From Bacteroidales bacterium (GTDB lineage Bacteria > Bacteroidota > Bacteroidia > Bacteroidales > BM520), in the NCBI GenBank assembly GCA_016285515.1, contig JAEEQW010000003.1, forward strand, positions 1-64,000: a stretch of DNA of 64,000 nucleotides, in the 5' to 3' direction. Below the pieces are notes generated by a model that saw nothing but the letters and a program-made list of their open reading frames with translations, searched no databases and was not told where the DNA came from. Shown in pieces: positions 53,173 through 56,265 of the stretch (its first letter is position 1; each line of letters begins with the position of its first letter). The translations under genes and the position numbers were made by a program.

Positions 53173-54549
53173 CTACAACTTGATGGTGCTTATGGCATAG
53201 AGTGGGAGGATGCTGACGTGGCGGATGGCGTTTTTGTTCTTTTCGTCTTTTTCGTCAATGTAGTCGAACTCGCCGAAGTTTTCAAGAGAGCAACGAATGG
53301 CCTGATACAGTCCCTTCTCTCGCATGAAATCCCATAGGCTTTTCATGCCGCCTTGAACGCCCGCCTTCACTTCGAGCGGTAAGATTTGCATGTTGTATGG
53401 CAGGATGTAATCCACCTCTGCCGTGGCATTCTTGGCTTGACGGGTCCAATAGAACAACTCGTAAGCCAAGTGTGGCGAACGGTAATGCAAGATTTCAAGG
53501 CCAGCAATCATTTCTGCCATTGGGCCCTTGTTGACTAGATCCGCAGCAGTGGCGGTGAGAATTTGTGTTGTGATTCCTGTGATGTCGCCCATGGCCATGT
53601 TCAGCAGTCTCAGCATCAATCCCGTGTCAAGTAAGAGCATCTTGCGGTAGCTGTCATCGCGCTCATCGCCCAATGGCAAGCCGTTGGAATTGGTGTGTGT
53701 GACTGGGATGATGATGTAGGCCTTTATGAGTAATTCAAGCGCTTTTTTTATCTCGGCGATTTTATATCCGCCAGGCACCTGTGAATACACGAACTTCTTT
53801 GTCGCTTGACGGGCGGCACTCCTCATGGTCAGCCTCAACATCTGCGGGTCAACCTTTTTTTTATATTTTGGAAAGTCAGCTTCATACCCGGTGATGATGT
53901 CGTCCTGCACTTCCTGACATTGCAGATAATCGTGGGTCTCTACCCATTTGGCAACCGATTCAGGCATTCCGCCTACCAGCATGAAGGTACGAATCAGACT
54001 TGTGAGTTTATCGTGCAGTGGCATTGGTAGTGGCGATGTCGTCGATGCCTGATTTCTAGCTTCTAATAGAAGCATTTCGTCGTTGGCTTCGAGAAACTCA
54101 TCGAAGGTCATTGGATACATATACATCGAATGAATCCTGCCGACGCCGTAGGTGGGGATGTCTTCCAACATGAATTCTAGCAGCGAACCAGCAGCGACGA
54201 CGTGCAGCTCAGGCATATCCTCCTTGAAGTAGCGCAAGGCCATAATGGCTTCGGCGCATTCCTGAATCTCATCGATAAAGAGCAACGTCTGGCCAGCAAT
54301 GATAGGCGTGCCATACATGGCAGCTATCTCTGGCACTATGCGCTTCACATCGAGATTGGGCTTAAACAATGCTTTGTAGTCGGGTTGTTTTTCAAGGTTG
54401 ATTTCCACGAAATATTTGAACTGCTCACCCAAATGCCTGACTGCCGTAGACTTTCCGACCTGACGTGCGCCACGGAGCAACACGGGCTTATGGATAGGGC
54501 GTGCTGCCCACTCACTTAGATATCGGTCTATGATTCTTTTGTAATACAT
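53173..54549 (-). CDS. AAA ATPase with DUF4143 C-terminal domain
   Basis: A 459-residue ATPase. Walker A LLRGARQVGKSTAV, Walker B TLLFIDEIQECAEAI, sensor VVAAGSLLEFML, and a C-terminal DUF4143 region ending AEVDYILPYNMQILPLEVKAG, which carries a PD-(D/E)xK-like D...E.K set. The family is abundant in gut Bacteroidota, often in variable regions, and has no settled role. The track start is a TTG; the ATG at 54549 follows a TAnnTTTG box. It lies between two direct copies of the island repeat (B and C). Confidence 0.85.
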   Translation of the reverse strand: MYYKRIIDRYLSEWAARPIHKPVLLRGARQVGKSTAVRHLGEQFKYFVEINLEKQPDYKALFKPNLDVKRIVPEIAAMYGTPIIAGQTLLFIDEIQECAEAIMALRYFKEDMPELHVVAAGSLLEFMLEDIPTYGVGRIHSMYMYPMTFDEFLEANDEMLLLEARNQASTTSPLPMPLHDKLTSLIRTFMLVGGMPESVAKWVETHDYLQCQEVQDDIITGYEADFPKYKKKVDPQMLRLTMRSAARQATKKFVYSQVPGGYKIAEIKKALELLIKAYIIIPVTHTNSNGLPLGDERDDSYRKMLLLDTGLMLRLLNMAMGDITGITTQILTATAADLVNKGPMAEMIAGLEILHYRSPHLAYELFYWTRQAKNATAEVDYILPYNMQILPLEVKAGVQGGMKSLWDFMREKGLYQAIRCSLENFGEFDYIDEKDEKNKNAIRHVSILPLYAISTIKL

Positions 54550-54578: not shown

Positions 54579-54583
54579 TAGAA

Positions 54584-54682
54584 AATGAAATAATCCAAAC
54601 AAATAATTTGGTGGAAAATAAAAAAATCCAAGGAAATAATTTGTTTCAAATCGAAAAAATCCAAGGTAATAATCGGCTTCAC
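54584..54682. repeat. 33-bp tandem repeats upstream of the DUF4143 ATPase promoter
   Basis: Three degenerate units with ATCCAA at 54593, 54626 and 54659, exactly 33 bases apart. Each unit holds AATCCAA followed by AAATAATTTG-like sequence. The exact period across the promoter-upstream region suggests binding sites on the same face of the helix or a slippage-prone array. Confidence 0.7.
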
Positions 54683-54822: not shown

Positions 54823-54869
54823 TAAAAAAATAATACATCATTCTTTCTTTGGTATTAGGAAAAATAGTG

Positions 54870-54877
54870 TACTTTTG
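54870..54877 (+). promoter_or_regulatory. -7 box of the DUF234-type ATPase gene
   Basis: TACTTTTG followed by CAT matches TAnnTTTG, 68 bases before the ATG, with the 15-bp tandem palindromes in between. Confidence 0.6.
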
Positions 54878-54880
54878 CAT

Positions 54881-54930
54881 CCGAAATGGTCATTTCGGAA
54901 ATGGCTGTTTCGGAAGTAATGATTTCTGAC
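54881..54930. repeat. Three 15-bp tandem near-palindromes in the ATPase leader
   Basis: Units begin GAAAT/GAAGT at 54883, 54898 and 54913, exactly 15 bases apart, each reading GAAATGGTCATTTCG or a variant. The first forms an 18-base perfect palindrome CCGAAATGGTCATTTCGG. They lie in the transcribed leader, a likely operator or RNA hairpin array. Confidence 0.7.
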
Positions 54931-54945
54931 ATAAAAAGATAAGAT

Positions 54946-56265
54946 ATGAGATTCTACGACAGAAAAGAAGAAATTGCCCTCCTGAAGGATACTCGGGAGC
55001 AGGCAGAGAAGGTGGCCCGCTTTACGGTGCTGACCGGACGGAGGCGTGTTGGCAAGACTACGTTGATACGCGAGGCGTACAAGGACAAGCCTTTCGTCTA
55101 TTTCTTCGTGGCAAGGAAGGCGGAGAGCGACCTGTGTGAGGCTTATCTGGAGGAGATTAGCGAGAAGTTGGGCATCCCCACGCTGGGCAGCAGCAGGCAT
55201 TTCAAGGACATCTTCCGCTACCTGATGCAGCTGTCGGTATCAAAGAGCTTCACGCTGGTGATAGACGAATTCCAGGATTTCTTCAGGGTGAACAAGTCGG
55301 TTTTCAGCGATATTCAGGATGTATGGGACGAGTTTGAGAAGAGTTCGCATATCAACCTGATTGTGTGCGGTAGCATTTACTCGCTGATGCAGAAGATTTT
55401 TAAGGACAAGAAGGAACCTCTGTACGGACGAAATACGGCAGAGCTGAGGCTGAAACCTTTCCGACCTTCGGTATTGAAGCAGATTATGGCAGATGCCAAG
55501 CCCGGCTATAGCAGTGAGGACCTGCTGGCGATGTTCACCTTTACGGGTGGGGTGGCTAAGTACGTGAACCAACTGGTGGATGCAGGGGCGCTGGACAAGG
55601 ATGCGATAATCAGGCATATCATCAGCCCCAACTCGACTTTTCTGAACGAGGGCAAGAACAACCTGATTGAGGAGTTCGGCAAGGATTACGGGATATATTT
55701 CTCCATCCTGTCGTGCATTGCCAGAGGGAAGAACACCCGCAGCGAGATTGAGGAAGTGATAGGCAAGGAGGTGGGTGGTTACATGACCAATCTGGAGAAC
55801 GAATATGAACTGATTGCCAAGCGGCAGCCCCTGCTGGAGAAGAGCACCACGAAGAACGTGCGGTATGAGCTGGGGGATGTGTTTTACAGTTTTTGGTTCA
55901 GATTCATTTTTAAATACAGCTATATCATTGAGATTGAGAACTATGCCAAACTTCGGGAGATTGTTGAACGCGACTACAACACGTTCAGTGGATTGATGCT
56001 GGAGCGGTATTTCCACCGTGTGGCGATGGAGAGTGGCCAATTCACAAGGATTGGACGCTGGTGGGACCGCAAGGGGGAGAATGAGATTGATATGATATGC
56101 GAGGACGAGTTGGAGGACAAGGCTGTGTTCTATGAAATCAAGCGTCAGAAGGATAAGATTAGCATCGGCCTGCTGAAGCAGAAGGCGGAGGTGATGCTCC
56201 GAACATCGGACGAGTTCAAGGATTACGAGATAGGGTACAAAGGACTGGGCATGGAGGATATGTAA
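54946..56265 (+). CDS. Archaeal-type AAA ATPase with DUF234 C-terminal domain
   Basis: A 439-residue ATPase starting MRFYDRKEEIALLKDTREQ (the FYxRExEl motif of this family). Walker A TGRRRVGKTTLI, Walker B TLVIDEFQDFF, sensor LIVCGSIYSLM, a winged-helix middle region, and a C-terminal DUF234 part with RWWDRKGENEIDMICED and AVFYEIKRQ, a PD-(D/E)xK-like nuclease core. The role is unknown. GC content is higher than in hamAB. It ends the island; the malic enzyme gene converges on it. Confidence 0.85.
   Translation: MRFYDRKEEIALLKDTREQAEKVARFTVLTGRRRVGKTTLIREAYKDKPFVYFFVARKAESDLCEAYLEEISEKLGIPTLGSSRHFKDIFRYLMQLSVSKSFTLVIDEFQDFFRVNKSVFSDIQDVWDEFEKSSHINLIVCGSIYSLMQKIFKDKKEPLYGRNTAELRLKPFRPSVLKQIMADAKPGYSSEDLLAMFTFTGGVAKYVNQLVDAGALDKDAIIRHIISPNSTFLNEGKNNLIEEFGKDYGIYFSILSCIARGKNTRSEIEEVIGKEVGGYMTNLENEYELIAKRQPLLEKSTTKNVRYELGDVFYSFWFRFIFKYSYIIEIENYAKLREIVERDYNTFSGLMLERYFHRVAMESGQFTRIGRWWDRKGENEIDMICEDELEDKAVFYEIKRQKDKISIGLLKQKAEVMLRTSDEFKDYEIGYKGLGMEDM

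Follow-up and report, generated by a model that had tools for sequence, protein, structure and literature searches.

The ATPase families PDC-S27 and PDC-S01 have been described as widespread single-gene candidates for phage defence, in which an ATPase is fused to a PD-(D/E)XK domain (PMC12988326). The DUF4143 ATPases (PDC-S01) are ranked fourth by frequency among the defence-like systems of prokaryotes (PMC12988326) and, in rumen genomes, PDC-S01 is the single defence locus found most often (PMC13356809), the antiviral role of both families having the standing of an unvalidated candidate in these sources (PMC12988326, PMC13356809). In their passages describing the families, neither paper mentions operators or DNA addresses, and we found no description of promoter operators of DUF234 or DUF4143 genes in the open-licence literature. 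A relevant regulator is IniR of mycobacteria, a STAND-type transcription factor with an SSO1545-like AAA+ domain and demonstrated promoter binding, which uses a C-terminal DNA-binding domain to activate an operon other than its own and whose description, in the relevant part of the paper, mentions neither a nuclease domain nor autoregulation (PMC5760070).

Here we analysed a window of 64,000 nucleotides from a Bacteroidales bacterium, by which we mean the whole stretch of DNA, and in particular an ATPase gene preceded by a short tandem array. Among solved structures, the closest folds to its product are the archaeal ATPases SSO1545 (2FNA) and PABY2304 (2QEN), followed in the Foldseek search by archaeal Cdc6/Orc1 initiators, all of which share with it the combination of AAA+ and winged helix. 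The matched chains of SSO1545 and PABY2304 (350-357 residues) are shorter than the 439-residue window protein, and we know of no cognate DNA site for either. Cdc6/Orc1 proteins recognise inverted repeats that often lie close to the initiator's own gene, but they have no PD-(D/E)XK domain and use another repeat layout, and the window shows no sign of a replication origin. In plasmid Rep-iteron autoregulation, a winged-helix protein reads private, exactly spaced repeats at its own promoter, whereas the present case is chromosomal, involves a 15-bp inverted dyad instead of direct iterons and shows no role in replication. Model matches assign the window protein to PDC-S27 and its neighbour to PDC-S01, and the two have a similar architecture of ATPase plus PD-(D/E)XK (PMC12988326, as far as the families are described there). 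By profile, the protein thus belongs to the unvalidated defence candidate PDC-S27 and, as judged from its sequence and that of its promoter, it appears to work like a self-regulated DNA-binding ATPase.

Results

The ATPase gene (54946..56265, + strand) encodes an AAA+ ATPase-winged helix-DUF234 protein of 439 amino acids. Both PF01637 (8.8e-17, 62.1 bits against a curated cut-off of 33.2) and PF03008 (1.2e-12, 48.5 bits against 22.5) exceed their cut-offs in this one protein, as in the ATPase_2-DUF234 family, and the PADLOC model PDC-S27 matches the whole protein (residues 2-429, 2e-46). The AlphaFold2 model (mean pLDDT 90) comprises the AAA+ domain, a lid, a winged helix and a C-terminal domain. 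The winged helix, delimited by the secondary structure of the model at residues about 247-310 (55684..55875, +), is the proposed operator-binding domain; its predicted recognition helix, GGYMTNLENE (residues 277-286; 55774..55803, +), contains Tyr279 (codon 55780-55782, +) and Thr281 (codon 55786-55788, +). The DUF234 domain (55894..56262, +) is PD-(D/E)XK-like according to Pfam, to its conserved residues and to the published architecture (PMC12988326), and D382 and E397-x-K399 are invariant in 20 homologues, giving the D...ExK motif of a putative PD-(D/E)XK nuclease.

Upstream of the gene, a -7 box, TACTTTTG (54870..54877, +), matches the TAnnTTTG of the Bacteroides promoter consensus, in which TTTG is found at -33 (PMC7366714); a possible -33 element TTTG (54848..54851, +) was placed by inspection. 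The array occupies 54883-54926, directly downstream of the box and before the ATG at 54946, in agreement with its preliminary description as lying between promoter and start codon. Since it begins 5 nt past TACTTTTG, which fits the Bacteroides -7 consensus, the transcription start is expected to lie within the array.

The sequence of 54881-54928 is CCGAAATGGTCATTTCGGAAATGGCTGTTTCGGAAGTAATGATTTCTG. Three units of 14 bases, each with an even centre, are spaced by exactly 15 bp, as had been described, and Tandem Repeats Finder (TRF) recovers a period of 15 (score 45). Unit 1 is GAAATGGTCATTTCG (from 54883), unit 2 is GAAATGGCTGTTTCG (from 54898) and unit 3 starts at 54913 as GAAGTAATGATTTCT. The units had been called near-palindromes; the third is degenerate (GAAGTAATGATTTC, 54913..54926) and, together with unit 2, gives the family pattern with one mismatch. 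The first unit is not part of an 18-base perfect palindrome, for in CCGAAATGGTCATTTCGG (54881-54898) the central GT is mismatched and only the 8-bp arms pair. A better description is a 29-bp operator dyad, GAAAT-GGTC-ATTTC-G-GAAAT-GGCT-GTTTC (54883..54911, without strand), made of four 5-bp half-sites in a 5-4-5-1-5-4-5 layout centred on the single base 54897. Its half-site score is 27/30, and when the 126 bases were shuffled 300 times with dinucleotides preserved, none of the shuffles reached this value; the family-wide site and the dyad statistics given below delimit the same feature.

This layout is shared by most DUF234 ATPase genes that we collected. The second DUF234 gene of the window's genome (C37) carries, in an equivalent position and with the same period, CGAAACGGAGAGTTC-CGAACTGATGAGTTC, and in 41 upstream regions (those of the window gene, of C37 and of homologues within the order) lag 15 alone exceeded the shuffles (z = 12.8). 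With 80 further loci, giving 119 usable upstream regions of DUF234 ATPases of Bacteroidota, a two-unit site was present in 106, against 0.35 expected in shuffles, and 13 were without a site at the threshold used. The condition named earlier as refuting, that such arrays be missing from other copies of the gene, was thus not borne out; the site is a conserved feature of the gene's own promoter, at a fixed position, starting in homologues mostly 7, 5 or -1 nt after TAnnTTTG. A minority of arrays (L069, L077, L170, L414 and L416) lies upstream of the -7 box.

At the position that varies most, the inner half-sites pair in 99% of cases (mutual information 1.0), consistent with a symmetric assembly of the protein, and the outer half-sites may differ from the inner ones, in which case they tend to do so together (GCAAC-GTAAC-GTAAC-GCAAC), while the spacers are free to vary. 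In distant homologues from other families of the phylum the 5-4-5-1-5-4-5 layout is kept with unrelated letters: ATACT half-sites score 30/30 in L194 and 24/30 in L195, and TTCCA half-sites 27/30 in L198, with 0/300 shuffles reaching the score in each case. No site of this layout was seen in the distant homologues L190-L192, L196 and L197. As judged from these comparisons, the unit under selection is the composite dyad around the single inter-unit base, not the repeat copy. Six loci (L075, L078, L410, L418, L419 and L423) show a variant with a 16-bp period, TAAAT-n4-ATTTA-TA-TAAAT; in this subgroup the recognition helix begins with GV or GT, not GG.

Phase-like change in copy number, which the preliminary description had offered as an example, would require unit number to switch the gene. 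Tandem units of one length are what such a repeat would look like, and three units occur in 15 of the 106 arrays; moreover, in L145 promoter and array are apparently duplicated in tandem, leaving two identical arrays ~72 bp apart. However, 90 of the 106 arrays have exactly two units and only one has four, these two units form one dyad, the spacers diverge between units, and outer and inner half-sites differ together in dyad order. A variable number of near-identical units was therefore not what the comparison between homologues revealed, and we regard a phase-variable repeat as extremely improbable.

A second alternative places the function in RNA, with hairpins of the leader acting as an attenuator or in translational control. 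As RNA, the window array does fold into a hairpin of 15 bp (-17.3 kcal/mol, z = -3.2). Across homologues, however, the half-sites pair in 76-100%, and pairing of the spacers (0.48-0.63) equals or only slightly exceeds that in shuffles (0.46-0.63), hence selection does not maintain an unbroken stem; some homologues, moreover, have the array upstream of the -7 box and so outside the transcript. A stem kept by compensatory changes inside the transcript was not found, making leader RNA a very unlikely explanation of the array.

The letters of the sites follow two positions in the recognition helix of the ATPase. Residue 279 is aromatic where the third base of the half-site is A, and Gln goes with T. 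Half-sites departing from third-base A accompanied 12/12 proteins with a non-aromatic residue 279 and 0/94 aromatic ones (Fisher 4.5e-16); the 12 carry Gln, His or Leu at this position. Of all 439 columns, that of residue 279 shares the most mutual information with the class of the third base, and 3/3 independent changes were concordant on a tree from which the winged-helix columns had been left out. Residue 281, within aromatic-279 proteins only, is T or S with GAAA inner half-sites and another residue with GTAA (54 + 37 agreements, 3 disagreements in the first set).

Among 32 further genes fetched as a held-out set, 24 had a recognisable 15-bp site. Here the 281 rule made no error (16/16), and the 279 rule was right for aromatic (16/16) and Gln proteins (6/6) but wrong for His (0/2), although His279 had agreed in 4/4 cases of the first set. 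In the His279 proteins L382 and L395 the half-sites mostly keep third-base A, contrary to the rule. The held-out result supports rather than proves a code, because these genes share ancestry with the first set, and it has the weakness that arrays were chosen by eye with the predictions printed alongside. With only 3-4 independent changes per letter on the tree, a formal sign test cannot reach 0.05, and the phylogenetic sign test of the 281 rule over all columns (4 changes) was underpowered. Within these limits of few independent changes and of the His279 exceptions, the operator letters follow the DNA-reading helix.

It could still be proposed that a different, unlinked transcription factor binds the operator and that the ATPase gene merely carries the site. 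Operator letters follow clades, so that shared ancestry alone gives some correlation (4 tree changes). Against this, the best of 439 columns for the third-base class falls in the ATPase's own recognition helix, the 281 rule succeeded in 16/16 held-out genes, the geometry is kept while the letters change completely, and the locus has no recurrent neighbour. We therefore judge this alternative unlikely and favour recognition by the ATPase itself: because the half-site letters covary with recognition-helix residues, the promoter is very probably bound by the product of its own gene.

The genomic context of the site is equally restricted. By pattern searches of the window's genome, on which all our genome-wide statements rest, the full array is present only at the window (22-base pattern with <=3 mismatches; 29-base pattern with <=1 mismatch), which argues against a multi-gene regulon. 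Within the 3-kb flanks of 79 loci, no neighbour family recurred in >5 loci, the commonest neighbour being a DUF4143-type ATPase. A separate regulator is thus not encoded nearby, and a linked regulator or toxin-antitoxin partner was rejected. A single array in the genome and the lack of a recurrent neighbour together favour autoregulation by the ATPase over an external regulator.

Arrays away from DUF234 genes are present in a few genomes. In G190, four solo intergenic arrays (L232-L234) were found, none beside a TAnnTTTG box. Other DUF234 genes have arrays on both sides (L070/L236 in G087, L132, L161 and L178), the second array being 41-77 bp past the stop codon in L070, L132, L161 and L178. 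These flanked genes and solo arrays, with the intact D..ExK motif, are what would be seen if the ATPase-nuclease mobilised an element of which the arrays are the ends or target sites, in the manner of REP/RAYT pairs or transposon ends, with self-regulation as a secondary role. Only 4/110 loci nevertheless carry an array in the first 100 bp downstream, the window's genome holds no second copy, and the arrays are positioned relative to the -7 box, leaving this reading highly improbable.

In viral contigs (L249-L328), the GTAA-type 29-bp array was found in 113 virus stretches against 15 for the reversed pattern. These arrays are often intergenic, and among related phages the half-sites are kept while the spacers vary; at least some of the matches are E. 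coli prophage sequence (L261). No DUF234 gene was found in 41 array-bearing virus records, an empty answer that proves little.

The divergent neighbour of the window gene (53173..54546, - strand) is an AAA_14-DUF4143 ATPase (PF13173 1.4e-25, PF13635 6e-19) and a PADLOC candidate PDC-S01 (1.3e-133). The two genes had been presented as unrelated ATPases that both carry promoter arrays. They do belong to separate families, although both are AAA+ proteins and their C-terminal domains, PF03008 and PF13635, are described among PD-(D/E)XK fusions (PMC12988326, in its account of these families). Both arrays are present, that of the neighbour (54583..54673, -) being of TTGGATTTTTT type in its promoter region with a TRF period of 33 (2.8 copies, score 108; 15/16 matches at lag 33, L047).

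The 2.58-Mb genome of the window encodes 29 DUF4143 and 2 DUF234 ATPases (L032-L061). A 16-base self-match of >=14/16 was found in 17/30 ATPase upstream regions against 0.30 expected, and in 2/47 control genes of the window against 0.78 expected. The lag was mostly 32-33 bp, and 23 bp in one subfamily, which agrees with the earlier suggestion of gene-specific arrays with different unit lengths. By sequence, most DUF4143 ATPases of this genome thus have apparently private promoter arrays with other periods than the DUF234 site. Their letters are unrelated, for example TTGGAAAAACGGACAAA x3 and GCCAACTTTGGAAGT x3. Among 26 DUF4143 genes from other genera, 10 reached a 14/16 self-match against 0.33 expected, and several high-scoring subfamilies in this sample had no arrays.

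Discussion

Altogether, our results make it likely that the array in front of the DUF234 gene is an operator, a 29-bp dyad of four half-sites, which would be bound by the downstream ATPase through its winged helix and which most likely serves repression. We propose a model in which the winged helix of the ATPase docks on its own dyad, presumably as four protomers per site. Docking over the transcription start would repress the gene in a negative autoregulation, and the ATP/ADP state or a trigger would likely release or redirect the protein. We infer repression rather than activation because the site overlaps the transcription start and appears to serve a single promoter. A common control principle for these ATPases, for example self-regulation, had been suggested in the preliminary description and is now well supported by the fixed layout of the DUF234 site at the start, by its covariation with the recognition helix and by the DUF4143 arrays.

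This circuit may be connected with phage defence or with the nuclease domain, and a wider hypothesis, which we consider rather doubtful, could be that PDC-S27 and PDC-S01 are both self-addressed ATPase-nucleases. Each protein would have a private promoter address with a period set by its subfamily (15, 23 or 32-33 bp) and with free letters, and occupancy of the address would act as the sensor. If so, up to about 30 copies could be kept in one genome without cross talk, and look-alike phage arrays or a phage factor could pull the protein off its promoter, switching the gene on and allowing the nuclease to act.

With a cognate DNA site and a residue-to-base rule, our study offers a concrete hypothesis about the substrate of the DUF234 family, which can thereby be assayed immediately using purified protein and reporters. 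DUF234 ATPases (PDC-S27) are also described as widespread (PMC12988326). Private sites of this kind would, moreover, account for the coexistence of many paralogues in one genome.
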